From a virus: a stretch of DNA of 64,000 nt. Position numbers and translations under genes: made by a program. Shown in pieces: positions 28,307 to 55,737 of the stretch. The DNA lies in the IMG/VR virus record IMGVR_UViG_3300025400_000011, positions 1 through 64,000 of that record; one strand, written 5' to 3'. Position 1 is the stretch's first letter. Each line of letters begins with the position of its first letter. The notes under the pieces were generated by a model. The model had not been told where the DNA came from. It did no database searches and saw only the letters and a program-made list of their open reading frames with translations.

Positions 28307-31300
28307 ATGGCGGACAATCCGTATACACAGTACCCATCAATCGTTTATCCGCATGAACTTCCAACAGTTCCAGCGGCACAACCTAGTGATTTGCTCTTTT
28401 TGGAGCAAAATAACGGAAATGGAACCTATACAACTTACTCGATAGCTATTTCTTCAGTTTCTGCTGTTGGTCCTTCTGGTCCTACCGGTCCAACAGGTCC
28501 TATAGGTCCGCAAGGCCCTGCTGGTCCTTCTGGTCCTTCTGGCGCACAAGGTGCTCAAGGTTCACAAGGTACACAGGGTTCACAAGGTGCTCAAGGCTCA
28601 ACAGGCCCGCGCGGTATTTCTGGTTATTCAGGCGCAACAGGTACTTCAGTAACAATAGTTGGTTCAGTACCAACTGCATCAGCTTTACCTTTTCCTTATA
28701 CAGGTAATGCTGGTGATGGTTATATAGTAGAAGATACCGGTCATTTAAATGTATGGAATGGTAGTGCTTGGGTAGATGTTGGTCAAATAAAAGGAGACTC
28801 TGGTACATCTGGTTTTAGCGGCGCACAAGGTGCACAAGGCAATCAAGGTGCGTCTGGTTTTTCAGGTGCTTCTGGTTCAGCTGCCATTGGGTTAATACTT
28901 TACCCAACTACTAACTCAGCTGACATAACCCCTTATAACTTTTCTGACTCAGTACCTCAAATAGGTGCACAAGTACCTCTAGATGTAGTCTTTACTAATG
29001 CTAATGACCCTGTTGGTGTTATTAGTACTATTACACTTTCTGGTGCTCCTAATAAGTCGTTAATTAATACTGGTACCTGGTACTTTGATACGTATTATGC
29101 TTTATCAGGCCCTAATGCATATAATGCTAATACATATTTTGTTTATGTAGTAAGCAAATGGGACGATGCTACAAGCACTAAGACTTCTTTATTCTCTGCT
29201 ACAAGTGATTTCATCACTAAAACGCCTTATATTGATCCTATATTATCAAGGACACCATATTATATAAGCGTACCTATACCTTTAAATGTAACTGATCGTT
29301 TAATAGTTGAAACTTTAGCTATTACTACAGACCCAGATGCAGAAGACATAACATACATTTATTTAGGTACAGATTACTATAGTAGAGTCATTACCAACAT
29401 TGCACTTGGTGCAGATGGTAAAGATGGTGCGTCTGGTTACAGTGGTTTTACAGGCCAATCAGGTTGGTCTGGTATTTCAGGTTATAGTGGTGATTCAGGT
29501 ATATCTGGTTTTAGTGGCGATTCTGGTTTGTCTGGTGAAAGCGGTATATCGGGCTATTCAGGCTTTAGCGGTATAGACGGAGATTCTGGTTATAGTGGTT
29601 ATACAGGCTTTTCAGGCTTTAGCGGTATATCAGGTTTTAGCGGTTATACAGGTATTTCAGGCTACTCAGGCTTTACAGGTACTTCAGGTTGGTCTGGTTA
29701 TTCAGGCTACTCTGGTACTTCAGGTTGGTCTGGTTATTCAGGCTTTAGCGGTTATACAGGTATATCTGGTTACACCGGTTTTAGCGGCTTTACCGGCTTT
29801 AGCGGTTTTTCAGGCTATAGCGGTATTAGTGGTTATACTGGTACCTCTGGTATTAGCGGTTACTCAGGTTATAGTGGTATATCTGGTTACACAGGCGCTT
29901 CAGGCTATTCTGGTATTTCAGGCTACTCTGGTACATCTGGTATCAGTGGTTATTCTGGGTACTCTGGTTTTAGCGGTATATCAGGCTTTAGTGGTGGCTC
30001 AGGTATATCAGGTTATTCTGGTGTAAGCGGTTATTCTGGTTTCTCTGGCTACACCGGTATTAGTGGTTATACAGGCTTCTCTGGTTACAGTGGTATTTCT
30101 GGTTTCACGGGTTTTAGTGGTAATTCTGGTATTTCTGGTTACTCTGGTTATTCTGGCTTCTCTGGTATTTCTGGTTACTCGGGCTTTACAGGTATAAGTG
30201 GTTACACTGGTATATCTGGTTATACAGGCTTTAGCGGTATATCTGGTTACTCTGGTAAAAACGGTACTTCAGTTACTATTATTGGTACGGTACCAACTGT
30301 TGGCGGTAACCCACAAGCTACATTAAACGCAGCGTTCCCAGGTGCAGTTAATGGTAATGGTGTTATAGACGAAACATCTGGTGACTTATGGGTATATGCA
30401 AATGGTACCTGGACTAATGTTGGTCAAATAAAAGGCGACACCGGTGCACAAGGTGCGCAAGGTAATTCAGGCTTTAGCGGCTTTAGCGGTATTAGTGGTT
30501 ACAGCGGCATAAGCGGTTATAGTGGTATTTCAGGCTTTAGCGGCGATTCTGGTATCAGCGGCTATACAGGCTTTAGCGGTATATCAGGCTTTTCTGGTAT
30601 ATCTGGTTATAGTGGTTATTCTGGTATTTCTGGTTACACAGGTATCTCTGGTTTTAGCGGTACATCTGGTTTTAGCGGTATTAGCGGTTATTCTGGTTTC
30701 TCAGGCTACTCTGGTATAAGCGGTTATAGCGGTAACTCCGGTATATCTGGTTATACAGGCTTTAGCGGTGGCTCTGGTATTAGTGGTTTCTCGGGTTATA
30801 GCGGTTTAAGCGGCTATACCGGTACTTCTGGTATTTCAGGTTATAGCGGCTTTACAGGTGTCTCAGGTTATACTGGTTGGTCAGGTTACTCTGGTATTAC
30901 TGGTTACTCTGGTACTTCTGGTTTCTCTGGGTTTAGCGGTTTTAGCGGCATTTCAGGCTACTCCGGCTTTAGCGGTATTAGCGGTTTCAGCGGTATTAGT
31001 GGCTTTAGCGGTGACTCTGGTATTTCAGGCTGGTCTGGCGATTCTGGCATTTCAGGCTATAGTGGTTTTAGCGGTACTTCAGGCTACAGTGGTGACTCTA
31101 CACCTGGTGTAGTATTATACCCAACTACTTTAACTTCTGATGTTGTAGGTTACAACTATATTGGACCTGATGCACAAAACGGAGCTGAAACATATGTTGA
31201 TTGTATATTTAATACAACTCAAAACCCAGCACCTGTTCTATTAACTGTAACCTTATCAGGCTATCCTTTAAGAGGTGTAATCAATACAGGCAACTGGTAC

Positions 31301-32878
31301 TTTGATACTTGGTATTCATTATCAGGTCCAAATGCATATAATGCACAAACTTATTTTACGTATATTGTAAGTACCCTTGATGTAAGCGGTAATAAGACTC
31401 AACTGTTCTCAGTAATGAGTGATCAGTTAGTTAAAACACCAAACCCAACTTACATTCGTACTCAATACTATATAGACAATGCTATATACATTAATACTTC
31501 TGACCGTATTGTAATAGATATACGTGGTTATACTACAGACACTCAAACAGAAGTCTTAACATACTATTTCTTAGGTACTACACATTATAGTAGTGTTATA
31601 ACTAATATACCTTTTGGTTTCAGTGGTCAATCTGGTTATTCTGGCTTTAGTGGTTTCTCAGGCTGGACCGGTTATAGCGGCTTCTCTGGTTTCTCTGGTA
31701 CTTCAGGTTTTAGCGGCTTTACTGGTTACTCAGGTTTCTCCGGTATAAACGGCATTAACGGTGCTTCAGGTTATACAGGCTTTAGTGGTTATACAGGCTT
31801 TAGCGGTTTTAGTGGTATATCAGGCTTTACTGGCTTCTCAGGCTATAGCGGTATAAGCGGTTTTACAGGCTTTAGTGGTTTCTCAGGTTATAGCGGCTTT
31901 AGCGGTACATCAGGTTATTCTGGTGTAAACGGTACTTCAGTTACTATTATCGGTACAGTACCGACTGTTGGTGCTAATGCACAAGCTACTTTAAATGCTG
32001 CTTACCCATCAGCTGTAAACGGTAACGGTGTCATTGACGAAACAACTGGTGATTTATGGGTATACGCTAACGGTACTTGGACTGATGTCGGTCAAGTAAA
32101 GGGTGATAAAGGTGATTCTGGTACCTCAGGTTGGTCTGGTATATCAGGTTTTTCTGGTCAATCAGGCTTCTCTGGTTTCTCAGGCTTTAGCGGTGACCCT
32201 GTTAACATTTCTAGTCAGTTAATAATGGCTACTAACTCGTTTAGCGCTGGTCAAGTACTAAGACTAAACTACGGAGACGGTTTATGGTACCTAGCTCAAG
32301 CTAATAACGTTGTAAATGCTGAAGCAACTGGTGTAGTAGAATATGCTACTTCGAGTCTATTCTATATTGTATATAACGGATTAATAACTTTCAACACTTC
32401 TGATATTAATAACTTAGTACCAGGGGATTGCTTATTCCTTTCACCAACAGTTGCTGGTGCTACAACTTCAGATAATGTAAGTGCATTAAACACAGTTTCA
32501 AAACCAATAATGCGCGCTGTTTCAAGCAACGTTGCAGTAGTTGTTAATGAACGTGGCATATTAAACACTAGCGATAATGTTCTTAACTCTTATGTTCCGG
32601 CAACATATGTAACAAATGCCTACTATACAGCTACACCTAGTGATTACTTTATCGGAGTAAATGTAGGGGGTCAAGCAACAGTTACACTACCGGTTGGTAC
32701 ACCAGGTAAGACATACACCATTAAGGATATGTCAGGAAATGCTAACACAACAACAAATCTTATTACTATATCCGCAACAAACCCAGATCTGATTGATGGA
32801 AGCACGTTTGATGTGATCGATACACCTTACGAAACAGTTTCTGTAATATATATTGGAGGTATGTGGAATTTAGTTTAA
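28307..32878 (+). CDS. Giant collagen-like tail fibre protein (1523 aa)
   Basis: After a short N-terminal domain (about 1-52) there is a classical collagen-like stretch with Pro and Gln (GPTGPIGPQGPAG, GAQGAQGSQG). Then come a GTSVTIVG module, a globular module opening LILYPTT, a long Gly-aromatic-Ser/Thr shaft, a second GTSVTIIG module, more shaft, a second YPTT module, more shaft, a third GTSVTIIG module, and a C-terminal head. The head has NSFSAGQVLRLNYGDG, GDCLFLSPTVAGA, YTIKDMSGNA and VSVIYIGGMWNLV, a typical fibre-tip domain. It lacks an S74 chaperone. It most likely forms a trimeric long fibre. An AGGATA sequence stands before the ATG. Confidence 0.85.
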   Translation: MADNPYTQYPSIVYPHELPTVPAAQPSDLLFLEQNNGNGTYTTYSIAISSVSAVGPSGPTGPTGPIGPQGPAGPSGPSGAQGAQGSQGTQGSQGAQGSTGPRGISGYSGATGTSVTIVGSVPTASALPFPYTGNAGDGYIVEDTGHLNVWNGSAWVDVGQIKGDSGTSGFSGAQGAQGNQGASGFSGASGSAAIGLILYPTTNSADITPYNFSDSVPQIGAQVPLDVVFTNANDPVGVISTITLSGAPNKSLINTGTWYFDTYYALSGPNAYNANTYFVYVVSKWDDATSTKTSLFSATSDFITKTPYIDPILSRTPYYISVPIPLNVTDRLIVETLAITTDPDAEDITYIYLGTDYYSRVITNIALGADGKDGASGYSGFTGQSGWSGISGYSGDSGISGFSGDSGLSGESGISGYSGFSGIDGDSGYSGYTGFSGFSGISGFSGYTGISGYSGFTGTSGWSGYSGYSGTSGWSGYSGFSGYTGISGYTGFSGFTGFSGFSGYSGISGYTGTSGISGYSGYSGISGYTGASGYSGISGYSGTSGISGYSGYSGFSGISGFSGGSGISGYSGVSGYSGFSGYTGISGYTGFSGYSGISGFTGFSGNSGISGYSGYSGFSGISGYSGFTGISGYTGISGYTGFSGISGYSGKNGTSVTIIGTVPTVGGNPQATLNAAFPGAVNGNGVIDETSGDLWVYANGTWTNVGQIKGDTGAQGAQGNSGFSGFSGISGYSGISGYSGISGFSGDSGISGYTGFSGISGFSGISGYSGYSGISGYTGISGFSGTSGFSGISGYSGFSGYSGISGYSGNSGISGYTGFSGGSGISGFSGYSGLSGYTGTSGISGYSGFTGVSGYTGWSGYSGITGYSGTSGFSGFSGFSGISGYSGFSGISGFSGISGFSGDSGISGWSGDSGISGYSGFSGTSGYSGDSTPGVVLYPTTLTSDVVGYNYIGPDAQNGAETYVDCIFNTTQNPAPVLLTVTLSGYPLRGVINTGNWYFDTWYSLSGPNAYNAQTYFTYIVSTLDVSGNKTQLFSVMSDQLVKTPNPTYIRTQYYIDNAIYINTSDRIVIDIRGYTTDTQTEVLTYYFLGTTHYSSVITNIPFGFSGQSGYSGFSGFSGWTGYSGFSGFSGTSGFSGFTGYSGFSGINGINGASGYTGFSGYTGFSGFSGISGFTGFSGYSGISGFTGFSGFSGYSGFSGTSGYSGVNGTSVTIIGTVPTVGANAQATLNAAYPSAVNGNGVIDETTGDLWVYANGTWTDVGQVKGDKGDSGTSGWSGISGFSGQSGFSGFSGFSGDPVNISSQLIMATNSFSAGQVLRLNYGDGLWYLAQANNVVNAEATGVVEYATSSLFYIVYNGLITFNTSDINNLVPGDCLFLSPTVAGATTSDNVSALNTVSKPIMRAVSSNVAVVVNERGILNTSDNVLNSYVPATYVTNAYYTATPSDYFIGVNVGGQATVTLPVGTPGKTYTIKDMSGNANTTTNLITISATNPDLIDGSTFDVIDTPYETVSVIYIGGMWNLV
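28639..28800 (+). repeat. GTSVTI module, three copies in one fibre gene
   Basis: Copies lie at about 28639-28800, 30262-30435 and 31930-32105. Each reads GTSVTI(V/I)G(S/T)VPT ... VWNGSAWVDVGQIKGD or the close WVYANGTWTNVGQIKGD. The second and third copies are nearly identical in protein. The pattern suggests a small beta domain with an exposed Trp, possibly carbohydrate binding. Confidence 0.7.
28885..29415 (+). repeat. YPTT globular module, two copies
   Basis: Copies lie at about 28885-29415 and 31100-31615. Both start with a V/I-LYPTT segment and share WYFDT(Y/W)Y(A/S)LSGPNAYNA and YSxVITNI. They interrupt the triplet shaft and probably form knobs on the fibre. Confidence 0.7.
29425..31930 (+). 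repeat. Gly-aromatic-Ser/Thr triplet arrays of the 1523-aa fibre
   Basis: Three blocks (about 29425-30258, 30446-31095 and 31620-31930) encode triplets such as GFS, GYS, GIS, GYT, GFT and GWS. They contain almost no proline or charge. DNA units are nine bases, with Ser and Gly codons varied between copies. Confidence 0.9.
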
Positions 32879-32933: not shown

Positions 32934-35900
32934 ATGGCAAATTCATTCGTCTACTCAGCAATTAGAGGTGCATCCGGCTTTTCCGGCTTCAGCGGGCAAA
33001 TAGGTACGTCCGGTTGGTCAGGTATATCTGGTTATTCTGGTGCATCAGGTGCCATAGGCCAATCAGGCTACTCCGGTATCTCTGGTTATTCAGGCTTTAG
33101 TGGCTTCTCAGGTTGGTCTGGTATAAGCGGCTATAGTGGTTTTACAGGTATTTCAGGTTTTAGTGGTATCAGTGGTTATAGTGGTTTCACTGGTATTTCT
33201 GGTTATACTGGTATTAGTGGTTACACTGGTATAAGCGGCTTTAGCGGCTTTACAGGTATTAGTGGTTGGTCTGGTATTTCCGGTTACTCTGGCTTCACAG
33301 GTATTTCTGGTTATTCAGGCTTTACTGGTATTTCAGGTTATTCAGGCTTTACAGGTATTAGCGGTTTTAGTGGTATTAGTGGCTACTCCGGCTTTTCAGG
33401 CTTTACTGGTATCTCAGGTTTTACAGGTATCAGTGGTTATTCCGGCTTTACCGGTATTTCAGGTTATTCTGGCTTCTCTGGTATAAGCGGTTTTACAGGT
33501 ATTTCTGGTTGGTCTGGTTATTCTGGTATTAGCGGTTTTAGCGGCTTTACCGGTATTTCAGGTTATTCTGGCTTCTCAGGCTTTACCGGTATTTCAGGTT
33601 GGTCAGGTATTTCTGGCTACTCCGGCTTTACAGGCATAAGCGGTTACAGCGGCTTTACAGGTATTTCAGGTTATACTGGTATATCTGGTTTTACAGGTAT
33701 TTCTGGTTTCAGCGGTATTAGCGGTTGGTCAGGTATTTCTGGTTATTCCGGCTTCACTGGTATAAGCGGTTATTCCGGCTTCACTGGTATTTCAGGTTAT
33801 ACCGGTATTAGCGGTTATAGTGGTATTAGCGGCTATAGTGGTTTTACAGGTATTTCAGGTTATACTGGTATATCTGGTTACAGCGGCTTTACAGGCTTTA
33901 GCGGTTATTCTGGCTTTACTGGTATTAGCGGTTACTCTGGCTTTACTGGTATTTCAGGTTATACAGGTTTCTCTGGTATCTCTGGTGGTACCGGTGCATC
34001 CATTTACGGTAGAACGTACTACCTACAAGAAGTAACAAGTGATCAAAACCCAACAGTATTTGAAGTAATGTCGTTAGTACCAGGCGGTGGTGGTACAGAT
34101 GTAAACGACGACGTATTAGCTCTTAACTCTACCACAGCAGGTCCAGGTAGCCCAAGCGCTTACGGTTGGTACTTAACACCAATTGGGGAACCAGGCTTAG
34201 TTGAAATTCCAGCTGGTTTGTGGGAATTCGATTTCTATCGTAACGTTTCTGCTAGCGCAGCAAACTTTGTTATTAGCGTATATAGTTACTCAATGGCTAC
34301 AAGCGCTACTAGCGCATTCATCTTAAGTGCTGATTCAGGCCCTGTTACAGATACAGTTTCAACTTTCCAAAAATTAGGTTACGTTACAAGCACGATTACA
34401 AAACTTTCTGCAACAGATCGTATCTTATTACAAGTTGCAGCTTACACAACAAGTACAGCAACAATTAGCGCTTCATACCATTACAATGGTAGTTCGATAT
34501 ATTCCGCTTTACGTACTCCAATCGGTCAAGGTGTTAGTGGTACATCTGGTTATTCCGGTATTGGTACTTCTGGTTACTCTGGTTTTAGCGGTATATCTGG
34601 TTTTACTGGTATCAGTGGTTTCAGCGGTATCAGTGGCTGGTCTGGTATTTCAGGCTACTCCGGCTTTAGCGGTATATCAGGTTATACAGGTATATCAGGT
34701 TATAGCGGTATTAGCGGTTACTCAGGCTTTACTGGTATTTCAGGTTACACTGGTATTAGCGGTTATAGCGGTATTTCAGGCTTTAGCGGCTTTACCGGTA
34801 TTAGCGGTTTTAGCGGTATTAGCGGTTGGTCTGGTATCTCAGGCTACAGCGGCTTTACCGGTATTTCAGGTTATACTGGTATCAGTGGTTTCACAGGTAT
34901 TTCAGGTTATTCTGGTATCAGTGGCTACAGTGGCTTTACAGGTATAAGCGGTTATTCAGGCTTTACCGGTATATCAGGTTATAGCGGCTTCACTGGTATT
35001 TCAGGTTACACAGGTACATCTGGCTACTCTGGTTATAGCGGCTTTACAGGTATAAGCGGTTATTCAGGCTTTACTGGTATATCAGGTTACTCCGGCTTTA
35101 GCGGCTTTACAGGTATAAGCGGTTACTCAGGCTTTACTGGTATATCAGGTTTCTCTGGTATCAGTGGCTATAGTGGCTTTACCGGTGTATCTGGTTTCAC
35201 TGGTATATCAGGTTTCTCTGGTATTAGTGGTTGGTCTGGTATTTCAGGCTACTCTGGCTTTACAGGTATTAGCGGTTACTCTGGTTTCAGTGGCTTCACT
35301 GGTATTAGTGGTTACTCAGGCTTTACCGGTATATCTGGTTACTCTGGTATTAGTGGCTATAGTGGCTTTACTGGTATATCGGGTTATACAGGTATAAGTG
35401 GTTTCAGTGGCTTTACCGGTATTAGCGGTTTCAGTGGTATTTCAGGCTTCAGTGGTTACACTGGTATGTCTGGTGCTACAACAAATATTTCAAGTCAAGT
35501 CATTACATACACGAACAGCTTTAGCGCTGGTCAAGTAGTACGTCTTGACAACGGTTCAAGCGGTTGGTTCTTAGCTCAAGCAGACAATGTAACAGATGCA
35601 GAAGCAACAGGTGTTGTCGCATCAGCTTCAGCTACAGGCTTCACCATTATATACATGGGCTTGATTACAAATCTTGCAAGCTTAACTCCTGGTGAATGTT
35701 ACTTCTTATCACCAACAGTTGCAGGTGCTGTAACAACAGTTGCTCCAAGTGCTTTTGGTACAGTATCGAAACCGGTCATGAGAGCTATTACATCTTCAAC
35801 AGCTGTAGTAGTAAATGAACGTGGTTATCTAAACTCTGATAACGCGTTGTTACTATATCCAAACGTACAAGGTGTACGTCTAGTAACAAGCAACCCATAC

Positions 35901-36152
35901 GTTGTACAATCAACTGACGAATATATCGGTATTAACGTTGCTACTCCAACCACTGTTTATCTACCAGCAATCGCAGGTATACAACAGGGCTTGTATGTAA
36001 CTATTAAAGATGAATCTGGTAATGCTAAGACAAACAACATTACATTATCTGGTGCAGGCGTAACCGTTGATGGTCAAGCTACTTACTTGTTAAACTACAA
36101 CTACGAAGCTGTATCATTAATATACAACGGCACTAACTGGTTTATCATATAA
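32934..36152 (+). CDS. Collagen-like tail fibre protein (1072 aa)
   Basis: A 10-residue start (MANSFVYSAI) leads into about 115 Gly-X-(Ser/Thr) triplets. A globular module follows that opens IYGRTYYLQEV and ends YNGSSIYSALRTPIGQG, then about 104 more triplets, then a C-terminal head (NSFSAGQVVRLDNG, GECYFLSPTVAGA, YVTIKDESGNAK, VSLIYNGTNWFII) homologous to the head of the 1523-aa fibre. No S74 chaperone is present. It probably forms a trimeric fibre; if the shaft is collagen-like at about 0.29 nm per residue, each shaft half would be near 90-100 nm. It has its own TATAAATA promoter element. Confidence 0.85.
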   Translation: MANSFVYSAIRGASGFSGFSGQIGTSGWSGISGYSGASGAIGQSGYSGISGYSGFSGFSGWSGISGYSGFTGISGFSGISGYSGFTGISGYTGISGYTGISGFSGFTGISGWSGISGYSGFTGISGYSGFTGISGYSGFTGISGFSGISGYSGFSGFTGISGFTGISGYSGFTGISGYSGFSGISGFTGISGWSGYSGISGFSGFTGISGYSGFSGFTGISGWSGISGYSGFTGISGYSGFTGISGYTGISGFTGISGFSGISGWSGISGYSGFTGISGYSGFTGISGYTGISGYSGISGYSGFTGISGYTGISGYSGFTGFSGYSGFTGISGYSGFTGISGYTGFSGISGGTGASIYGRTYYLQEVTSDQNPTVFEVMSLVPGGGGTDVNDDVLALNSTTAGPGSPSAYGWYLTPIGEPGLVEIPAGLWEFDFYRNVSASAANFVISVYSYSMATSATSAFILSADSGPVTDTVSTFQKLGYVTSTITKLSATDRILLQVAAYTTSTATISASYHYNGSSIYSALRTPIGQGVSGTSGYSGIGTSGYSGFSGISGFTGISGFSGISGWSGISGYSGFSGISGYTGISGYSGISGYSGFTGISGYTGISGYSGISGFSGFTGISGFSGISGWSGISGYSGFTGISGYTGISGFTGISGYSGISGYSGFTGISGYSGFTGISGYSGFTGISGYTGTSGYSGYSGFTGISGYSGFTGISGYSGFSGFTGISGYSGFTGISGFSGISGYSGFTGVSGFTGISGFSGISGWSGISGYSGFTGISGYSGFSGFTGISGYSGFTGISGYSGISGYSGFTGISGYTGISGFSGFTGISGFSGISGFSGYTGMSGATTNISSQVITYTNSFSAGQVVRLDNGSSGWFLAQADNVTDAEATGVVASASATGFTIIYMGLITNLASLTPGECYFLSPTVAGAVTTVAPSAFGTVSKPVMRAITSSTAVVVNERGYLNSDNALLLYPNVQGVRLVTSNPYVVQSTDEYIGINVATPTTVYLPAIAGIQQGLYVTIKDESGNAKTNNITLSGAGVTVDGQATYLLNYNYEAVSLIYNGTNWFII
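32959..33993 (+). repeat. First triplet array of the 1072-aa fibre
   Basis: About 115 triplets, dominated by the nonapeptide unit GISGYSGFT. Nearly every third residue is Gly and every triplet ends in Ser or Thr. Confidence 0.9.
33998..34530 (+). repeat. GRTY globular module, copy 1 of 3
   Basis: A module of about 170-185 residues opening IYGRTY and containing LTPIGEPGL(V)EIPAGLW, YSYSMATS(A)TSAFILSAD, TDRILxxV and RTPIGQGVSG. Copies 2 and 3 are in the 1089-aa fibre (about 36817-37377) and the 2185-aa fibre (about 50992-51508). It is always placed between two triplet shafts. Confidence 0.8.
34534..35476 (+). repeat. Second triplet array of the 1072-aa fibre
   Basis: About 104 triplets of the same GISGYSGFT type, leading into the C-terminal head. 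Confidence 0.9.
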
Positions 36153-36182: not shown

Positions 36183-39100
36183 ATGAGCAATACATTTGTA
36201 TACACAGCAATTAAAGGACAATCCGGTTTTTCAGGCGCGCAAGGTGTAGCAGGAGCTACAGGCACTTCTGGTTATTCCGGTATCTCTGGTTATACAGGTA
36301 TTAGCGGCTTCACTGGTATATCCGGTTATAGCGGCTTTACCGGCACTTCCGGTTACTCTGGTTTCACAGGTATATCTGGTTTTACAGGTATATCTGGCTA
36401 TACTGGCTTTTCAGGTATATCCGGTTATACAGGTATATCTGGCTATTCTGGTATCTCAGGCTTTAGCGGTTTTACTGGTATTAGCGGTTATAGTGGTTTT
36501 TCTGGCTTTACAGGCATCTCTGGCTATACCGGTGTAAGTGGTTACAGCGGTTTTAGTGGAACAAGCGGCTACTCTGGTATTTCAGGTTATTCAGGCTTTA
36601 CAGGTATATCTGGTTATACAGGTATATCTGGTTATTCAGGCTATTCAGGCTTTAGCGGTTTTTCAGGTATTAGCGGTTATTCCGGCTTTAGCGGTTTTAC
36701 AGGTATCAGTGGTTATTCAGGCTTTACTGGTATATCAGGCTTCACTGGTATAAGCGGTTACTCTGGTTTTTCTAGCTTTAGTGGTTATAGTGGTTTCTCT
36801 GGTGTATCTGGTCCAACAGGTGCTTCTATATACGGTAGAACATATTTTTTTAATGAAACCAATAGTGACCAACCTGCTTATGAAACAATTGCATTGACAC
36901 CGGGTGGTGGTGGGGTTACTCAATATGATGATGTTGCTTATGTTAACAGTACTAATAGTAATGCTTATAGTGCACAATCAATAGGTGGTTATTTAACTCC
37001 TATTGGAGAGCCAGGTATTGCAGAAATACCAGCTGGTATTTGGGACATTGAATGGTTTTATCAAGTAGGCGCGGGTGCAACAACACCAAACCCTTCTGCA
37101 GGCTTTGTATTTAGTTTGTATAGCTATTCAATGGCTACAAGCTCAACTAGTGCATTTATTTTAAGTGCAGATACAGGAGCAGTGTTTACAACAGCTGCAA
37201 CACCAACATATACTAAGTTTAGTTATGTAACAAGTAATATTACTTTACTTTCAGCTACAGATAGAATACTTGTTAATGTAGGAATGTATTCACCGAATAC
37301 ACAAACAGTATCGGCTACATTTATATATAATGGTGCAACTAATTATTCTGTAATTAGAACTCCAATCGGTCAAGGTGTATCTGGTGCTTCTGGTTATTCT
37401 GGTGTTGGTACTTCAGGTTATTCAGGCTTTACTGGTATATCTGGTTTTACAGGTATTTCTGGCTATAGCGGTTTTTCTGGTGCTAAAGGCTCTACAGGTA
37501 CATCTGGTTATAGCGGCTTTACAGGTATTTCTGGTTATACAGGTATATCAGGTTATAGCGGTATAAGCGGTTACTCAGGCTTTACAGGTATAAGCGGTTA
37601 TTCAGGCTTTAGCGGTTTTACTGGTATATCTGGTTACTCAGGTATTTCTGGTTGGTCTGGCTTCACTGGTATATCAGGCTTTACTGGTATTTCAGGCTAT
37701 AGTGGTTTTAGTGGTATAAGCGGTTACACCGGTATATCTGGCTATAGTGGTATCAGTGGTTTCTCAGGTTTTACAGGCATAAGTGGTTATACCGGTATAT
37801 CAGGCTATTCTGGTATTAGTGGTTTTTCAGGCTTTACAGGTATATCAGGCTTTACAGGTATTTCTGGTTACTCTGGTTTTACAGGTGTATCAGGCTATAG
37901 CGGCTTTACTGGTATTTCCGGTTATACTGGTATATCAGGTTATTCTGGCTTCTCTGGTTCTGCTGGGGTTTCCGGTTTTAGTGGTATATCTGGTTTTTCT
38001 GGTACAAGCGGTTTAAATGCTACTAATGTAAACGTAACATACAGCAACTCTTTTAGTCCAGGCAATGTTATATACAAAACTTCTGGTGGTTATGCTTTAG
38101 CACAAGCAAATGCAGCTTCTACATCAGATATTATTGGTGTTGTAATAAGTGCAACAGGTACATCATTTCAGTATGTAGCTAACGGCTACACTTCAGGCTT
38201 TACCGGTATTGTAGACGCTGCACAATACTATCTTTCAGATACTACAGCAGGTCTAATGACCACAACACCTCCTTCAGCTATTGGTTCTATTATTAAACCA
38301 GTAATGATTGGTATAGGTACTACAGCTGGTCTAATAGTTGAGTATCCTGGTTCACAGATTCAGGCTGCTAATGCAAATTCTGGTTATTCTGGTTTTTCCG
38401 GTGCAGGACAATCTGGTTACAGTGGTTTTTCTGGCTTAAAAGGCTCAACAGGCGCTCAAGGTTCTACAGGTAGTACTGGTACATCTGGTTATTCGGGCTT
38501 TAGCGGAACTAATGGTACAAATGGTACTAACGGTACTTCTGGTTATTCAGGCTTTAGTGGTACAAATGGTACTAACGGTACTTCTGGTTACTCTGGTTTT
38601 ACAGGCATATCTGGTTATAGCGGTTTTTCAGGCTTTTCTGGAGCATTTGCAGGTAGTACAGGTACTACAAATTATGTAGCTAAGTTTACAGGTACGAATT
38701 CATTAGGCACAGGCTTAATATACGACAATGGTACTAATGTTGGTGTTGGTCTAACAGCTCCTAATACAAGCTTACAAATAAATAACAATGGTACTTACGC
38801 TACGACCGGTAATATGAATACCGGTATAGTTGTAGGTAATAACACTAGCGGAGCAGCTCTCAACTCTGGTGCATATGATTCAGGTACTACTACGACTTCT
38901 TATGGCTGGTTTAATACTGGTTATGCCAATAATGCTAATATAGGCGTTTCTATGATTTTTGCTGCAGGTGGTACCGAAAAAATGCGTATTACTACTGGTG
39001 GTAATGTCGGTATCGGTACGACTGCACCTAGCGGTACACTTACAGTTGCTGGTTCTTTGTCAGCTAAAACAGCAAGTATAGCTCAAAACTTTACAGTGGA

Positions 39101-41558: not shown

Positions 41559-41565
41559 ATAAATA
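41558..41565 (+). promoter_or_regulatory. Late-promoter-like element AATAAATA
   Basis: AATAAATATTTTTATG places the element five bases before the ATG of paralogue B. It overlaps the stop codon region of paralogue A. Confidence 0.45.
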
Positions 41566-41570
41566 TTTTT

Positions 41571-46842: not shown

Positions 46843-47868
46843 ATGGCATATTTTAATCCAGCAAACGCTTACTCAGGTTATTCAGGCTACGGTGCACAAG
46901 GCTTCCAAGGAGCTCAGGGCGCTACAGGTGCTCAAGGTGCACAGGGTTTCCAAGGCCCACAAGGCGTTTCTGGTTACTCAGGCTTTACTGGCATAAGTGG
47001 TTATAGCGGTTTTACTGGTATTTCTGGTTACTCCGGCTTCAGCGGTGTTAAAGGTTCAACAGGTCTTTCTGGTACTTCAGGTTACTCAGGCTTTACTGGT
47101 ATTTCAGGCTACTCTGGTTTCTCTGGCCCACAAGGCTTCCAAGGACCTCAAGGTTTTTCAGGTACATCTGGTTACTCAGGCTTTACTGGTATTTCAGGTT
47201 TTAGTGGTCCTGGCGCTAACCAAACATTAAACACAAACAGCACTGTAGTATTCCAAACACTTTCAGCATTTTCAATCAGTGCAGTTAACTTAATCACGTT
47301 AAACGAGTATTTTGCATCTGCATCAAACTTTACTACATATGGTAATACGTTATTAAGTGGTGCTACTACAGTACAAGGTAACATGACTGTAAACGGTGTA
47401 GTCTTAGCTTCAGGTAATCTAGGTGTTGGTACAGCTTCACCAAGTTCCACATTAACAGTTAACGGTACATTATCAGCTGCTGGTGCAGTTGCTGTATCCA
47501 ATAACACATTTACGATTGATAAGACTGGTAACGTAGTAGCTTTAAGCTATAGTTCAACATCTACAAGACTACAAAAGACTAACATCAGAGATTTAGAAGA
47601 TGTTATTCCTGATGCTTTAGGCGTTACTCAAAACCTACACCCAGTTGTATACGATAGTTTAGTTGATGCATCAAGCAAAGACAACATCGGTCTTATTGCT
47701 GAAGACGTGTATTCTTTATTACCAAATGTGGTTAACCAATACACTGATGCTAATGGTGACCAAACATTTGTTGGTATTGATTACAGCCGTCTAACAGCTA
47801 TTCTTATTGATAACATTAAAGTGTTATCAAACAAGATTCAAGAGCTTAGTGCAAAGCTGCCACAATAA
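46843..47868 (+). CDS. Short collagen-like fibre with S74 chaperone (341 aa)
   Basis: MAYFNPANAYSGYSG leads into a mixed collagen-like shaft: GAQGFQGAQG at first, then GYSGFTGIS triplets up to about residue 123. A coiled or beta connector follows (NQTLNTNSTVVFQTLSAFSIS), a beta repeat (NLGVGTASPSSTLTVNGTLSA) and an S74 chaperone starting near Ser240 (Lys245), with GLIAEDVYSLLPNVV. It is expected to form a short trimeric fibre that matures by self-cleavage. The C-terminal chaperone resembles that of the 1089-aa fibre (KTNIR, VVYDSL), pointing to duplication. Confidence 0.87.
   Translation: MAYFNPANAYSGYSGYGAQGFQGAQGATGAQGAQGFQGPQGVSGYSGFTGISGYSGFTGISGYSGFSGVKGSTGLSGTSGYSGFTGISGYSGFSGPQGFQGPQGFSGTSGYSGFTGISGFSGPGANQTLNTNSTVVFQTLSAFSISAVNLITLNEYFASASNFTTYGNTLLSGATTVQGNMTVNGVVLASGNLGVGTASPSSTLTVNGTLSAAGAVAVSNNTFTIDKTGNVVALSYSSTSTRLQKTNIRDLEDVIPDALGVTQNLHPVVYDSLVDASSKDNIGLIAEDVYSLLPNVVNQYTDANGDQTFVGIDYSRLTAILIDNIKVLSNKIQELSAKLPQ
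46873..47212 (+). repeat. Collagen-like array of the 341-aa fibre
   Basis: A mixture of Gln-containing triplets (GAQ, GFQ, GPQ) and Gly-aromatic-Ser/Thr triplets, with one GVKGSTG unit also seen as GAKGSTG in the 1089-aa and 343-aa fibres. Confidence 0.85.
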
Positions 47869-49178: not shown

Positions 49179-49179
49179 C

Positions 49180-52100
49180 ATGTCGCTAACAACAGTAAAC
49201 CAACTTAGTCTTATACCTGCAGCCGCTGGGGTTTCAGGCCGTTCTGGTTTTTCTGGCTTCTCTGGGTTTCCTGGAGCACAAGGAGCACCCGGTGGTGCTT
49301 CTGGTTATAGTGGTCAATCAGGTACTTCTGGTTTCTCTGGGTTTACCGGTTTCAGTGGTTTTAGCGGTCTAAACGGTACAGTAGCATATTCCGGTACTTC
49401 TGGTTTCTCTGGGTTTAGCGGTTTTAGCGGTTATTCAGGCGCTACCGGTTTTAGCGGTTTTTCTAGTTTTTCAGGCTTCTCTGGGTTTTCAAGTTTTAGT
49501 GGTTATTCTGGCTACACCGGTCAATCTGGTTTTAGTGGTATATCAGGCTTTAGCGGTATAAGTGGTTTTAGCGGTATATCTGGTTATAGTGGTATGAGCG
49601 GTTTTACAGGTATATCTGGTTTCAGTGGTGCTCCTGGTGCAGCTGCAGCTTCCGGTTATTCTGGTTTTAGCGGTTATAGCGGTATTTCCGGTTATAGTGG
49701 TTTTTCTAGCTTTTCCGGTTACAGCGGTTTTAGTAGCTTTAGTGGTTACTCGGGCTTTAGCAGTTTTTCAGGTTTTTCAGGTTACTCCGGTTTTAGCAGC
49801 TTTAGCGGGTTCTCTGGTTTTAGTAGCTTTAGTGGTTTTTCAGGTACATCAGGTTATTCTGGTCAATCTGGTTTCTCAGGCTTCACTGGTTTATCAGGCT
49901 ATTCTGGTACGAGTGGTTTTAGCGGGAATTCAGGTACATCAGGTTATAGCGGGTATACCGGTTTACAAGGCTATTCTGGTTTAAGCGGTTATTCCGGACA
50001 ATCAGGTTTTAGCGGCATTTCAGGATGGTCAGGAGATTCAGGTATTAGCGGTTATTCTGGCTTTAGCGGTCAATCTGGTGCTTTAGGCATTTCAGGTTTT
50101 TCTGGTTACAGTGGTCAATCAGGCTACTCTGGTACTTCTGGTTATGTAGGTATTTCTGGTTACAGTGGTTTTAGCGGACAATCTGGTTGGTCTGGTTATT
50201 CTGGTATAAGTGGTACTAGTGGTTATTCTGGTCAATCAGGTTTTTCAGGCCCGTCTGGTTATTCCGGCTTTACAGGTATTTCTGGCTACTCTGGCTTTAG
50301 TGGTCAAGTAGGTACAACCGGTCAATCAGGTTATTCTGGTTTTAGTGGTCAATCAGGTTACAGTGGTCAATCTGGCTTCTCTGGTATTTCAGGCTTTAGT
50401 GGTTATACAGGTACATCTGGTACTTCTGGTTACTCCGGTATTAGCGGTTATTCAGGCTTTACTGGTATTTCAGGTACCTCAGGCTATTCCGGTTCAGTAG
50501 GTACATCCGGTACTTCAGGTTATTCCGGTACTTCTGGTTATTCAGGGCTTTCTGGTTACTCAGGTACAAGCGGCTATTCCGGTACTTCAGGCTATTCTGG
50601 TACAATAGGTACAAGCGGTTATTCTGGTATTAGTGGTTACTCAGGCTTTACTGGTATTTCAGGCTATTCCGGTTTTACAGGTACTTCAGGCTTTACTGGT
50701 ATATCTGGTTATAGTGGTATTTCAGGCTTTAGTGGCTTTACTGGTATTTCAGGTTATTCTGGACAATCAGGCTACTCCGGTACTTCTGGTACGGTAGGTA
50801 CTTCAGGTTACTCCGGTTATTCTGGCTTGTCTGGTGCTTCAGGTTATTCTGGTTTATCAGGCTTTAGCGGTATATCAGGTTATACAGGTATTTCAGGTCA
50901 TTCAGGCTTTAGTAGTTATTCTGGTTATAGCGGTCAATCAGGTTTTACAGGTATTTCTGGTTTCTCAGGTTGGTCAGGGCCAACAGGCGGTTCGGTTTAC
51001 GGTAGAACGTACTTCTTTAATGAAACTAATAGTGATCAAAACCCAGCAGTATTTGAACAACTAACCTTACAACCAGGTGGTATTAGTATAGAAGACGATC
51101 AAGTCACTATTACATCTGCAGCAGGTATAAGTGCTATTGGTTGGTACTTAACACCCCCAGGTGAACCTGGTTTAGTATATATTGAATCAGGTCTATGGGA
51201 TATTGAGTTCTACCGTTACGTAACGGGTGGTAGTGCTGGGTTTATATTCAGTATATACACATTCTCGATGGCTACTAGTGCCACGAGTACATTTATTTTA
51301 AGTGCTGATTCAGGACTTGTTTCTGATACAGTTTCGACATATCAAAAGATAGGCGCTGTTACAAGTAGTATCACCTCTCTATCTTCTACAGATCGTATTT
51401 TACTACAAGTAGCTGCTTATACTAACAGTGTAACACCAGTAACTGCTGCTTACCAATATAATGGTAGTTCAGTGTACAGTGTAGTACGTACTCCTATTGG
51501 TCAAGGTGTTGCTGGTCAGTCTGGTTATTCTGGCTACAGCGGTTTAGGTTATTCAGGCTACAGTGGTCAATCAGGCTATAGTGGTTTTACAGGCTTTAGT
51601 GGCTTCACTGGTATTAGTGGTTTCACTGGTACTTCAGGTTATTCAGGCTTTACAGGTATTTCTGGTGCTTCAGGCTATTCTGGTACAGTAGGTATTAGCG
51701 GTACTTCAGGTTATTCCGGCTTCACTGGTATATCTGGTTACTCTGGTATCTCTGGTTTTTCAGGCTTTACTGGTATAAGCGGTACTTCAGGTTACTCTGG
51801 CATTTCAGGTTATTCTGGTATTTCTGGTTATAGTGGTTATTCTGGTGCTTCAGGTTATTCTGGTACATCTGGCTTCTCTGGTATCTCAGGCTTTACTGGT
51901 ATTAGCGGTTATTCAGGCTTTACAGGTATTTCAGGTTATAGTGGTACTTCAGGCTACTCAGGTACATCTGGTTACAGCGGTTATTCCGGTCAATCTGGTT
52001 TCTCAGGTATATCAGGCTATAGTGGTACTTCAGGCTTTAGCGGTATATCTGGTTATAGCGGTTTTACAGGTCAATCTGGTACTTCAGGTTATAGCGGCTT

Positions 52101-55100
52101 AAGCGGTTATAGCGGTACTTCAGGTTTCTCAGGCTTCACAGGTATAAGCGGTTATTCCGGTCAATCAGGCTTTAGTGGTTTCACTGGTATATCTGGTTAC
52201 TCTGGTACTTCAGGCTTTAGTGGTATATCAGGCTTCTCTGGTTACACCGGTATTTCAGGCTTCTCAGGTATTAGCGGTTGGTCAGGCTATTCTGGCTTTA
52301 CGGGTTTATCAGGCTTTAGTGGTTACTCCGGTTTATCAGGCTTTACAGGTATTTCAGGTTACTCAGGCTTTAGTGGTCAAATAGGCTACTCTGGTCAATC
52401 AGGCTTTAGTGGTTTTACTGGTGTAAGCGGGTTCAGTGGTACATCTGGTATTTCTGGTTATTCTGGCTTTACAGGCATTTCCGGCTTTAGCGGTATTTCA
52501 GGCTTTAGCGGTATAAGCGGTTTTAGCGGTATTTCTGGTTACTCTGGTTTATCAGGGTTCTCAGGTTACACAGGTATAAGTGGTTTCTCAGGCTTTACAG
52601 GCGCTTCTGGTTTCTCTGGTATATCAGGCTGGTCTGGCTATAGCGGCTTTAGCGGTTTTTCAGGCTTTAGTAGCTACTCCGGATTTAGCGGCTTTAGTGG
52701 TTTCTCAAGCTATTCCGGTTTCTCAGGGTTTAGCGGTTTTTCAAGCTTCTCTGGTTTCTCTGGTTTTAGTAGCTTCTCTGGTTTCTCAGGCTTCAGTAGT
52801 TATTCCGGTTATACAGGTGTTTCTGGTTACTCTGGTTATTCTGGTTTTACTGGCTTCTCAGGCTTTACTGGTTGGTCTGGTTTTAGCGGTTATCAAGGCT
52901 ACTCTGGTTTTAGTGGCTTCTCTGGTTTTAGTGGAGCAGGTATAACAAGTACTGCTACTACAAGTTATATACCTAAGATGTCAAGCTCGACATCTGTAGC
53001 TAATAGTTTAGTATATGACAACGGTACTAATGTAGGTATCAATACTACTAGCCCAGCACATACATTACATGTCCAGGGGGATATATATTCTTCTGGTGCT
53101 ATTATCGGTAGTATCAACAATACACTTAAAACAACTAATGTCGGTGCTACTAGTTCAATATATGTAAGATCAGACGGTAGCACAGGCGCATTTAATGATT
53201 CTAATACTGCTTTCTATGTAGATAATATCGGTAACTTATCTATTTTCAATCAGCTTTACTATAACTCTTCTACACAAAAGTTCGTCATTGCTGGTACATT
53301 GCAAGCAGCTTCAATAGGTGCAACAAGTGCAATATATATTGCTGCAACAGGTGTTACACCTTCATTTAGTGCATGCAATACACCTTTCTATGCTGATAAT
53401 ACTGGTAACTTCTCGTTAGGTAATAAGTTTGCTTGGAACAGTAAGACAAACGTTTTAAATGTTGGTGGTACAATAAATGCTGCTAATATAGGTGCAACAA
53501 GTGCTATATACATTGCTGGTGCAACAGTAACACCTTCATTTAGTGCTTCTAATACACCTTTTTGGGTAGATAGTTCTGGTAGATTATCTCTAGGTAGCAA
53601 ACTTACCTGGGACGGTAATGGTACGTTAAATGTAGGTGGTACTATTAAGACTACAACAGCAGACGCTACAAGTGCAATATATGTAAGAGCAGATGGTGGT
53701 GTTGGTGCATTTAACGACTCTAATACAGCTTTCTGGGTAGATAATACTGGTAACTTATCTATTTTTAATAAACTTTATTACAATGCTTCTACTCAAAAGT
53801 TCTGGATCGGTGGGACATTGCAGGCTTCTACAGTAGGTTCTACTAGTGCAATATATGTACGTACAGATGGTAGTGCTGGTGCATATAACAACTCAAGCAC
53901 ACCATTCTATGTAGATAATACAGGTCAATTTTCTCTTGGTAATAATGTAACTTGGAGCGGTGGTGCATTAACAGTAAATGGTACTGTTACTACTGGTGCA
54001 TTAACAGCTACAGGTGGTAAAATATCAAACTGGAATATTAATACCAATAGTTTTACATCAACTAATGGTGATATAACTCTTAATAGTAGTTCTACCCCTT
54101 ATATAGGCGTTAATACAACCACATTTGGTAGTGCTGGTATATTCTTAGGTAAGAGTGGTACTAACTACGTATTCTATGCAGGTAACGGTAGTAATCAAGC
54201 TTTAAAATGGGACGGTAGCGCATTAACAGTATCCGGTACTATTGGTGCAACTGCTGGTAATATAGGTGGTTGGGGTATAGGTAGTACATCTCTTACATCA
54301 ACTAATATAACTATTGATAGTTCTGCCGGGTCAATAACAAGTACAGATGGTGCTGGTAGTTATGTATATCTTACTTCAAACTTTGTAAGCGGTTATGGTG
54401 GTGCTGTAACTAATAGCGCATCTTACAAGTTATATGCTTTAGGTAATGGTGCATATTTAAATATTTCAAATGCCTCTTTTAGTGTTGGTGGTGGGGTAGC
54501 TAGTAGCTCATTAGCTACGTGGTCGGTTACAGGTGGTGGTGGTACAGTTTCAATGACCCCCGGCAGATTAGATGCAAGTTCTGCAGTTTCTGGTTTTAGT
54601 GGTACTTTCACTCGTCTAGTAGTTGGTAATAACGGTTTTGATGTTACAGGTGGTGGTACAATATCTGGAGATGTAGGACTAGGTACAGGTGCCAAGATAT
54701 ACCTACATGCAGCTTCAGGTTGGGTAGGAGTTTCAGGCGGTATTGCATTCGGAGATGGTACTACAATGAACACTGCTGGTGGTTCTACTGGACCACAAGG
54801 TGCTTCTGGTACTTCAGGGTGGTCTGGTTTTAGCGGTATAAATGGCTCTAACGGTGCTTCTGGTACTTCAGGGTGGTCTGGTTTCTCTGGACAAAAAGGT
54901 GCAACAGGACCGCAAGGATTAAGAGGCCCAACAGGACCACAAGGGCAAAGAGGTCCTACAGGTTCTCAAGGCTTTAGCGGTATTTCAGGTTGGTCTGGCG
55001 CAAAAGGTGCTCAAGGTTCACCTGGTTCAACTTCTTATAACCAATCTCTCAACACATACAACTCTGTAACATTTGCAGGTCTAACAGTTTCTGATGGTAC

Positions 55101-55737
55101 AGCTAGTGATGTAGTAGCTACATTTAGTGGTTTAGTAAACCTTCAATCAGGTACAGTTGGACCACACGTAATATATACTGCAGGAGCTGCAGGTACCACT
55201 GGTAATGAATACGGTTTAGGTTTATCCGATTCTTCGTATGGTAATCCTGCAAATACTTGGTTAAAAGGTAACGGTGATGCTTCCTTTGGTGGTGCTGTTT
55301 CTAAAGGCTCTGGTTCATTTAAAATTAACCATCCGTTACCCTCGTTAAGTGCTACAAACTATTTAGTACATTCATTTATTGAAGGTCCAAGAGTAGATCT
55401 TATATATAGAGGTACAGCAGCACTTAGTGCAGGTCAAGCTGTTTTAAACTTAGATGAAACAGTAGGTATGACAGAAGGTACGTTTGTAGCTTTATGTAGA
55501 GAGGTACAAGTATTTGTTACAAATCAAACAGATTGGTCTGGTGTGCGTGGTTCAGTTACTGATAATATTTTAACCATAACATGTCAAGATCCTTCTGCTA
55601 CGTCTACTGTTAACTGGATGGTAATAGGTGAACGTCATGACCCACACATTATTAGTACAAGCTGGACTGATGCAAGCGGTAAACCTATATTAGAACCAGT
55701 TATTCCACCACCAATACCATTATCTGCTATATTATAA
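49180..55737 (+). CDS. Giant collagen-like tail fibre (2185 aa)
   Basis: This is the longest protein in the window. A short N-terminus (MSLTTVNQLSLIPAAAG) is followed by about 195 Gly-X-Ser/Thr triplets, a GRTY module, about 159 more triplets, and five tandem 57-58-aa beta repeats (53125-53988). A beta region (KISNWNINTNSFTSTNGDI), a short GPQG/GPTG collagen segment and a C-terminal domain follow (INHPLPSLSATNYLVHSFIEGP, RVDLIYRGTAALSAGQA, MVIGERHDPHI). The last domain is known from T4-like cyanophage fibres. It carries no S74 chaperone. Glycine is replaced by serine at regular intervals in parts of the shafts. Confidence 0.87.
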   Translation: MSLTTVNQLSLIPAAAGVSGRSGFSGFSGFPGAQGAPGGASGYSGQSGTSGFSGFTGFSGFSGLNGTVAYSGTSGFSGFSGFSGYSGATGFSGFSSFSGFSGFSSFSGYSGYTGQSGFSGISGFSGISGFSGISGYSGMSGFTGISGFSGAPGAAAASGYSGFSGYSGISGYSGFSSFSGYSGFSSFSGYSGFSSFSGFSGYSGFSSFSGFSGFSSFSGFSGTSGYSGQSGFSGFTGLSGYSGTSGFSGNSGTSGYSGYTGLQGYSGLSGYSGQSGFSGISGWSGDSGISGYSGFSGQSGALGISGFSGYSGQSGYSGTSGYVGISGYSGFSGQSGWSGYSGISGTSGYSGQSGFSGPSGYSGFTGISGYSGFSGQVGTTGQSGYSGFSGQSGYSGQSGFSGISGFSGYTGTSGTSGYSGISGYSGFTGISGTSGYSGSVGTSGTSGYSGTSGYSGLSGYSGTSGYSGTSGYSGTIGTSGYSGISGYSGFTGISGYSGFTGTSGFTGISGYSGISGFSGFTGISGYSGQSGYSGTSGTVGTSGYSGYSGLSGASGYSGLSGFSGISGYTGISGHSGFSSYSGYSGQSGFTGISGFSGWSGPTGGSVYGRTYFFNETNSDQNPAVFEQLTLQPGGISIEDDQVTITSAAGISAIGWYLTPPGEPGLVYIESGLWDIEFYRYVTGGSAGFIFSIYTFSMATSATSTFILSADSGLVSDTVSTYQKIGAVTSSITSLSSTDRILLQVAAYTNSVTPVTAAYQYNGSSVYSVVRTPIGQGVAGQSGYSGYSGLGYSGYSGQSGYSGFTGFSGFTGISGFTGTSGYSGFTGISGASGYSGTVGISGTSGYSGFTGISGYSGISGFSGFTGISGTSGYSGISGYSGISGYSGYSGASGYSGTSGFSGISGFTGISGYSGFTGISGYSGTSGYSGTSGYSGYSGQSGFSGISGYSGTSGFSGISGYSGFTGQSGTSGYSGLSGYSGTSGFSGFTGISGYSGQSGFSGFTGISGYSGTSGFSGISGFSGYTGISGFSGISGWSGYSGFTGLSGFSGYSGLSGFTGISGYSGFSGQIGYSGQSGFSGFTGVSGFSGTSGISGYSGFTGISGFSGISGFSGISGFSGISGYSGLSGFSGYTGISGFSGFTGASGFSGISGWSGYSGFSGFSGFSSYSGFSGFSGFSSYSGFSGFSGFSSFSGFSGFSSFSGFSGFSSYSGYTGVSGYSGYSGFTGFSGFTGWSGFSGYQGYSGFSGFSGFSGAGITSTATTSYIPKMSSSTSVANSLVYDNGTNVGINTTSPAHTLHVQGDIYSSGAIIGSINNTLKTTNVGATSSIYVRSDGSTGAFNDSNTAFYVDNIGNLSIFNQLYYNSSTQKFVIAGTLQAASIGATSAIYIAATGVTPSFSACNTPFYADNTGNFSLGNKFAWNSKTNVLNVGGTINAANIGATSAIYIAGATVTPSFSASNTPFWVDSSGRLSLGSKLTWDGNGTLNVGGTIKTTTADATSAIYVRADGGVGAFNDSNTAFWVDNTGNLSIFNKLYYNASTQKFWIGGTLQASTVGSTSAIYVRTDGSAGAYNNSSTPFYVDNTGQFSLGNNVTWSGGALTVNGTVTTGALTATGGKISNWNINTNSFTSTNGDITLNSSSTPYIGVNTTTFGSAGIFLGKSGTNYVFYAGNGSNQALKWDGSALTVSGTIGATAGNIGGWGIGSTSLTSTNITIDSSAGSITSTDGAGSYVYLTSNFVSGYGGAVTNSASYKLYALGNGAYLNISNASFSVGGGVASSSLATWSVTGGGGTVSMTPGRLDASSAVSGFSGTFTRLVVGNNGFDVTGGGTISGDVGLGTGAKIYLHAASGWVGVSGGIAFGDGTTMNTAGGSTGPQGASGTSGWSGFSGINGSNGASGTSGWSGFSGQKGATGPQGLRGPTGPQGQRGPTGSQGFSGISGWSGAKGAQGSPGSTSYNQSLNTYNSVTFAGLTVSDGTASDVVATFSGLVNLQSGTVGPHVIYTAGAAGTTGNEYGLGLSDSSYGNPANTWLKGNGDASFGGAVSKGSGSFKINHPLPSLSATNYLVHSFIEGPRVDLIYRGTAALSAGQAVLNLDETVGMTEGTFVALCREVQVFVTNQTDWSGVRGSVTDNILTITCQDPSATSTVNWMVIGERHDPHIISTSWTDASGKPILEPVIPPPIPLSAIL
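49226..50985 (+). repeat. First triplet array of the 2185-aa fibre
   Basis: About 195 triplets, with Gln at X (GQS) more often than in other fibres. The stretch near 49456-49850 has serine in place of glycine every third or fourth triplet. Confidence 0.9.
50992..51508 (+). repeat. GRTY globular module, copy 3 of 3
   Basis: Opens VYGRTYFFNETNSDQNP and ends YSVVRTPIGQGVAG, close to copy 1 in the middle (TYQKIGAVTSSITSLSSTDRIL). Confidence 0.8.
51512..52940 (+). repeat. Second triplet array of the 2185-aa fibre
   Basis: About 159 triplets. The stretch near 52655-52812 again has SYS or SFS in place of the Gly triplet at intervals of four and then three triplets. Confidence 0.9.
53125..53988 (+). 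repeat. Five tandem 57-58-aa beta repeats in the 2185-aa fibre
   Basis: Repeats begin at 53125, 53299, 53473, 53644 and 53818. Each contains (G/D)(A/S)TSxIY(V/I), then FYVDNTG(N/Q)FSLGN or close variants, and ends with L-x-V-x-GT. Spacing is 171-174 bases. They probably form a regular triple-stranded beta shaft. Confidence 0.85.

Follow-up and report, generated by a model that had tools for sequence, protein, structure and literature searches.

The shafts of four large fibres encoded by this virus consist of Gly-aromatic/Ile-Ser/Thr triplets and are probably collagen-type trimeric fibre shafts, representing a proline-free aromatic variant of phage collagen. This reading is based on the single register shared by aromatic and Pro-rich collagen triplets, on an insert domain that also occurs within a canonical phage collagen, on G1G breaks, and on the placement of aromatic residues at position X. 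Purifying constraint among orthologues, S74 chaperones and the fold matches of the knob domains point in the same direction. The sequence-only reading had set an unusual collagen beside a polyglycine-II (PGII) bundle or a triangular β-helix; the former is the best fit to these features, and the latter two gained no positive support.

Seven fibres with glycine at every third residue

Gly-x-y runs were sought in all six frames of the window (64,000 nucleotides out of the 108,882 bases of the virus record), runs of at least four triplets were counted and the proteins were then read. This gave a total of 1088 triplets over seven plus-strand ORFs. The four large fibres, A, B, C and F, hold 979 triplets (247, 220, 165 and 347, respectively), and the short-shafted fibres D, E and G hold 109 (43, 36 and 30). 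When the residues of these proteins were shuffled, a mean of 0.8–19 such triplets and a longest run of 9 were obtained, compared with observed longest runs of 30–125. The commonest triplets across the seven ORFs are GIS (209), GYS (205), GFS (178), GFT (104) and GTS (65).

Position X is filled by Phe, Tyr, Trp or Ile in 71% (A), 94% (B), 78% (C) and 67% (F) of triplets, and position Y by Ser or Thr in 90%, 99%, 92% and 90%, respectively. Pro occurs 10, 0, 1 and 11 times in the arrays of A, B, C and F; pooled over the seven ORFs it stands at X in 32 of 1088 triplets (2.9%), and in none of the 220 triplets of B. Charged residues take 20 of 494 X and Y positions in A, 0 of 440 in B, 2 of 330 in C and 7 of 694 in F, whereas Asp, Glu, Lys and Arg account for 20% of the other window proteins. 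These per-fibre counts agree with the composition first described, namely aromatic residues or Ile at X, Ser or Thr at Y, and scant Pro and charge. The ‘hundreds of consecutive triplets’ also described apply to whole proteins; single unbroken runs reach about 125 triplets at most. The near-absence of Pro holds overall, although fibre A opens Pro-rich, and classic and aromatic triplets are mixed in D, E and G as well as in the final run of F. The collagen triple-helix repeat PF01391 scored above cut-off in all seven ORFs; these matches reflect the low complexity and the regular Gly spacing of the arrays and are no proof of homology or fold.

Slippage or mis-assembly as the origin of the arrays was ruled out by the mixed Ser codon families, a dN/dS of about 0.2 and the agreement of assemblies. 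Fibre B was recovered in independent assemblies, being identical in L249 and having the same first shaft in L262, which is evidence against mis-assembly. Codon drift at low GC was rejected as the cause of the composition: array composition did not follow locus GC (r = -0.04), aromatic arrays are also present in loci of up to 55% GC, Glu and Lys codons are likewise AT-rich yet are avoided in the arrays, and a relative of 39% GC (L280) carries classic GPT/GPQ collagen.

All fibres and their parts are given by window position on the plus strand. Fibre A (28307–32878, 1523 residues) carries its 247 triplets in six runs, together with two jelly-roll knobs and three small inserted domains. The first shaft (28469–28648, 20 triplets) opens with a classic Pro-rich stretch of the GPTGPIGPQ type, GPSGPTGPTGPIGPQGPAGPSGPSG, and runs in register into GISGYS. 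An insert domain of ∼ 48 residues follows (28649–28792), then the first knob (28883–29407), unbroken shafts of 96 (29408–30271) and 74 triplets (30434–31099), the second knob (31100–31615) and a shaft of 36 triplets (31616–31939). A head-closure (Hc2-like) gene (27139–28293) lies immediately upstream and, because it adjoins fibre A, this protein might be a neck or whisker fibre rather than a baseplate fibre.

In fibre B (32934–36152, 1072 residues), the shaft of which is free of Pro and charge, 115 unbroken triplets (32967–34001) precede the knob (34002–34529), directly past which lie a G1G break (GIG, 34557–34565) and a second shaft of 101–102 triplets (34563–35480). Fibre C (36183–39452, 1089 residues) has a knob at 36828–37373, a G1G break past it (GVG, 37401–37409) and a C-terminal Peptidase_S74 chaperone domain (39156–39314). 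Fibre F (49180–55737, 2185 residues) shows 13 in-phase Gly-to-Ser positions (GFSSFSG). Its first shaft (49294–50994) has 189 in-phase triplets, 179 with Gly, only when ten non-Gly (mostly Ser) positions are tolerated; the knob (50995–51504), a G1G break (GLG, 51541–51549) and a second shaft (51547–52941) of 155 in-phase triplets, 150 with Gly, come after it. In the middle of fibre F (52942–54780) a ∼ 60-residue unit, ‘TSAIYI...FSLGNK’, recurs in the manner typical of tail spikes.

Fibre D (39462–40493, 343 residues) mixes GAQ, GST and GYS in its 43 triplets and has an S74 domain at 40140–40319, and fibre E (46843–47868, 341 residues) mixes GPQ with GYS and GFT in 36 triplets, with S74 at 47572–47733. 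The 30-triplet run of fibre G (57829–61173, 1114 residues; S74 at 60877–61047) starts GPTGPIGPT and ends GYSGVSG in a single register. At the collagen rise of 0.286 nm per residue, the shaft contour per chain comes to 142–298 nm with the knobs left out. The proposal that the shafts could exceed a tail of roughly 90 nm holds by this arithmetic only, and the tail length is itself an estimate.

The tail sheath (18938–21271) and large terminase (24372–26198) genes mark this large, freshwater-type bacterial virus as a contractile-tailed phage. Given these two genes and the matches of fibre G to tail-fibre PHROGs, the fibres would be virion components, most likely tail fibres. Inside the fibre cluster lie paired neighbouring paralogous ORFs (40497–42641) of phrog_1417, which has no assigned function, and, between fibre genes, an ORF (43986–45620) in which a Cys-rich phrog_1458/phrog_36869-like N-terminal region is joined to a Methyltransf_24 domain; this fusion could modify some virion component. 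The phage record also encodes four radical-SAM type proteins, one in the window (4267–5526, with SPASM) and three in L343 (957–2435, 3053–4531 and 7658–9148). At L343 5568–12415 (record ∼ 89.6–96.4 kb) there are CHASE2-adenylate/guanylate cyclase, FecR and CsgG-like genes, which are cellular-looking cargo, host flank or part of a chimeric contig. Consecutive genes for an APS-kinase/nucleotidyltransferase, two GT2 glycosyltransferases and DUF6445 at L343 13790–17492 (record ∼ 97.8–101.5 kb) form a possible glycan modification set. The glycosyltransferases near 98.6–100.5 kb could glycosylate Ser or Thr; no link between them and the fibres was found.

Register, breaks, constraint and flanking domains

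Triplets with Pro at X and aromatic-Ser/Thr triplets occur within one unbroken run in D, E, F, G and the first run of A. Such mixed single-register runs account for 98 of 547 environmental runs among the matches listed. Moreover, the insert domain of shaft A, TSVTIVGSVPT...VWNGSAWVDVGQIKG, has a homologue in gp98 of Gordonia phage Pupper that is flanked by canonical GPKGDTG-type collagen, and another in gp23 of phage P19250A that is flanked by GYS/GFS triplets. In these sequences the aromatic array occupies the place of collagen around the insert domain.

Breaks in the environmental arrays are mostly of the G1G type (614 of 839), followed by G5G, where one Gly is replaced in phase (91), among the matches listed. 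The G1G breaks of B, C and F each lie 3–4 triplets past the knob, and the position in B is also kept in orthologues. A natural G1G break is present in human COL4A5 (PMC9778032), and a G1G break in mannan-binding lectin bends the helix (PMC9898670). Aromatic residues (Phe, Tyr and Trp) stand at X 7430 times and at Y 27 times in the environmental arrays, among the matches listed; in the rat COL1A1 stretch that was compared, 8 of 8 Phe residues are at X. Imino-acid richness is common in collagens but does not strictly define them. Against the collagen reading, few residues stabilise the helix less, by host-guest values, than an aromatic at X or Ser at Y. The lack of Pro in fibre B also counts against it when compared with prokaryotic collagens, in which Pro takes 19% of X positions, and 31% in Gram-positives (PMC8968730).

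The shaft of fibre B is under purifying constraint, with a dN/dS of 0.20–0.25 among orthologues. Gly was changed at 0 of 203–218 positions, a figure that is partly by construction, since repeats cannot be aligned with certainty and the alignment program prefers to pair Gly with Gly. The restriction at the other two positions is unaffected by this: X was changed in 23–46%, mostly among Phe, Tyr, Ile and Trp, and Y in 8–30%, nearly all being Ser–Thr swaps. Gaps between the orthologues are mostly whole triplets, and Ser codons of both families are intermixed in the arrays. Shaft lengths of B among relatives are unequal (115/101, 110/94 and 111/102 triplets), so length can vary.

Related knobs of ∼ 175 residues separate the shafts, two in A and one each in B, C and F. 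An AF2 model of the B knob gave a β jelly-roll with a pLDDT of 90. Its best viral fold matches (TM 0.74–0.84) include phage proteins labelled as collagen triple helix repeat, as well as S74/intramolecular chaperone-labelled proteins. Against the PDB the best matches were esterase jelly-roll domains (TM 0.6), with TNF at a TM of ∼ 0.3, and C1q-labelled viral proteins matched the knob weakly in the fold comparison. By these matches the knob is not clearly a C1q/TNF domain, and a TNF/C1q-type trimer is no more than suggested. Peptidase_S74 was found above the curated cut-off at the C-termini of C, D, E and G, and the Pfam search returned no such domain in A, B or F.

Modelling of the shafts themselves was uninformative: AF2 of the B knob, second shaft and C-terminus (716 residues, 4 sequences) had a pLDDT of 27, and the shaft as a monomer had a pLDDT of ∼ 20 with no strands predicted. 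A PDB sequence search with the shaft gave significant matches to collagens and collagen-like repeats, which are generic, arising via Gly position. PDB entry 8zxl was rejected as a member of the same class, its repeat being GAPGSQGAPGLQ.

Spread of the class and neighbour rule

In IMG/VR, at least 120 stretches matched a degenerate DNA pattern that encodes eight G-[FYI]-[S/T] triplets. Among the matches listed there are at least 524 distinct runs in at least 102 loci, with at least 13,764 triplets and a longest run of at least 333; the loci are partly non-independent and some share contigs. GYS, GIS and GFS are the dominant triplets in these loci, among the matches listed, and because the set was picked by an aromatic pattern its mean composition is biased, while the neighbour rule is unbiased. 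The aromatic Gly-x-y class is common in IMG/VR and occurs in many environmental viruses, a spread of which the sequence-only reading was unaware. No paper in the literature searched, outside which subscription papers largely lay, matched array strings such as GISGYSG or GFSGISG.

A cultured member of the class is gp23 of Methylophilaceae phage P19250A (KX815270.1, 21390–24995; L248:3410–7015; host IMCC19250), which has 281 triplets and is annotated as a ‘tail length tape-measure protein’. This annotation is mistaken, the protein being a Gly-aromatic-Ser fibre that shares the insert domain of fibre A. Cultured-phage counts are too low, since the arrays are masked as low-complexity sequence in BLAST protein searches. 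Two relatives by tail sheath differ in their arrays: L276 (54% sheath identity) carries aromatic arrays, and L280 (53%) a Pro-rich GPT/GPQ array ending in S74. A scan of genome contigs returned mostly out-of-frame GC-rich or simple repeats, the only true-looking mixed arrays being those in L134 and L207. These Gly-aromatic-Ser arrays lie on contigs that were assigned to cellular genomes, a Candidatus Nitrosotalea MAG (L134) and an Omnitrophota MAG (L207), and the genome behind L134 has three S74 domains; the arrays are probably viral DNA.

What is new here is a conserved avoidance of adjacent β-branched residues at X. Within the window no GIS triplet is directly followed by another (43.9 expected), and GIS comes after GFT 77 times (21.6 expected). 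In the environmental set, among the matches listed, the GIS-GIS pair was seen 27 times as against 736 expected from run composition, and it is absent from 70 of 80 informative loci (L009–L128). Neighbouring β-branched X residues (Ile, Val and Thr) occur at 0.24–0.26 of the shuffled level and GIT is found 9 times compared with 3085 for GIS, again among the matches listed, whereas aromatic residues at neighbouring X positions are allowed. Coupling is strongest from X to the next X, and the couplings of X to Y within a triplet and of Y to the next X exceed that of X to the next Y. The couplings of X to Y within a triplet and of Y to the next X represent the side-chain contacts recognised in collagen, lateral Y-X and axial Y-X', with X-X not recognised (PMC9599227). 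The strong X-X coupling seen in these sequences counts against the collagen reading. Either a structural cause or descent from an old hexapeptide unit may lie behind the neighbour rule.

Alternative folds, proposed assembly and known systems

The shafts could instead be trimers or higher bundles of straight polyproline-II/polyglycine-II helices without superhelical twist, in which aromatic and Ile side-chains stack in rows. Arrays free of Pro and charge with aromatics at X are indeed atypical of canonical collagen, the strong and widespread neighbouring-X grammar is what a side-chain zipper needs, and a twist-free triple helix with hydrophobic rings has a precedent in a designed C1q stem assembly (PMC11869133). 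However, aromatic and Pro triplets lie in unbroken register, and in other phages the insert domain is set between stretches of canonical GPKGDTG collagen; on account of these shared registers and the shared domain both kinds of triplet are expected in one fold, and an untwisted bundle is considered unlikely. Gly at every third residue would equally fit the PGII faces of a single-chain bundle such as the S16 gp38 recognition domain or snow flea antifreeze protein. That arrangement needs a turn after each short strand, but the shafts contain runs of 96–125 triplets without turn or spacer; in addition, no gp38-type Pfam domain was found in the fibres, the PDB sequence search with the shaft matched no PGII protein and no gp38, and AF2 gave no compact monomer, albeit a weak argument. 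A single-chain PGII bundle is accordingly very unlikely.

Triple β-helices are frequent in phage fibres and S74 is their usual cap, so that the chaperone domains would suit a triangular β-helix or β-solenoid shaft. A strict Gly at every third position with Ser/Thr and aromatics nevertheless matches no known solenoid, AF2 predicted a shaft without strands, and classic collagen triplets are interleaved in register, which makes such a shaft highly improbable. Hardly to be expected, too, is a disordered FUS-like Gly/Ser/Tyr low-complexity linker of a sticky or phase-separating kind. The GYS/GFS content does resemble that of prion-like domains, and AF2 indicated disorder; but the three-residue periodicity is exact over hundreds of residues, Gly is constant among orthologues, indels are mostly whole triplets, and the X/Y asymmetry is sensitive to register.

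For the preferred collagen-type shaft, three chains would assemble side by side, with the C-terminal modules (S74 in C, D, E and G) bringing them into register and the jelly-roll knobs probably helping to do so. The Gly-x-y stretches would then wind into collagen-type triple helices, in which Gly packs at the axis and Phe, Tyr or Ile at X and the small hydroxyl residues at Y face outward. The G1G breaks after the knobs are probably hinges, and the shafts as a whole would serve as long semi-flexible spacers from the virion anchor to the receptor-binding ends. An aromatic/Ile-Ser code may here replace Pro and ion pairs, which would set the shafts apart as a composition class of their own among phage collagens; candidate stabilisers are aromatic and CH-π packing among X side-chains, hydroxyl hydration networks, trimeric domains clamping very long runs and, possibly, O-glycosylation. 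It is conceivable, though on balance doubtful, that the shafts form a Pro-free, charge-free superhelix or bundle governed by a Gly-(Tyr/Phe/Ile)-Ser code and the β-branched rule, held by aromatic stacking and possibly without the canonical twist, which would be a second construction principle for a collagen-like rod. As a guess, an aromatic, uncharged, hydroxyl-rich rod might confer protease resistance, surface sticking or side-by-side packing.

By the usual teaching, collagen owes its stability to Pro/Hyp and ion pairs. In the present set of more than 13,700 triplets from about 100 loci, a lower bound, both are nearly absent and the neighbour chemistry is clear. Should the shafts be triple helices, they would represent a second stabilising code for collagen; otherwise, a new fibrous fold is hidden under the ‘collagen triple helix repeat’ label. 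Pro-free recombinant rod designs follow from the arrays, and the class accounts for the mis-annotated ‘tape measure’ of a cultured freshwater phage.

In BclA-type GPT collagens, which keep Pro at X, and in giant-virus GXT repeats (by description), the hydroxyl residue Thr dominates Y, whereas in the window Ser dominates Y and aromatic residues or Ile fill X. Thr makes up 31.6% of Y residues in bacterial collagens (PMC8968730). The C1q stem assembly, the experimental structure of which departed sharply from its AF3 prediction, shows that other geometries, with packed hydrophobic rings, are open to Gly-x-y triple helices (PMC11869133); it is a multi-helix assembly of hydroxyproline-containing peptides, unlike the aromatic Pro-free arrays of the window. 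S16 gp38 and snow flea antifreeze protein are Gly-rich PPII/PGII structures in which short helices are joined by turns in one chain. Closer in architecture are EPclA/EPclB and Pupper gp98, which share Gly at every third residue and folded caps with the window fibres. EPclA of an E. coli prophage has been proven to form a trimeric triple helix, which lacks hydroxyproline and yet is stable up to 42°C (PMC3368898). The Pupper gp98 shaft is rich in Pro and charge, in contrast to the aromatic/Ile X, Ser/Thr Y and very long shafts of the window. P19250A gp23 has more Glu/Asp triplets than the window fibres, its charged residues numbering 41, and the P19250A record yielded no S74 domain, but like them it consists mostly of GYS, GIS and GFS triplets and carries the same insert domain.
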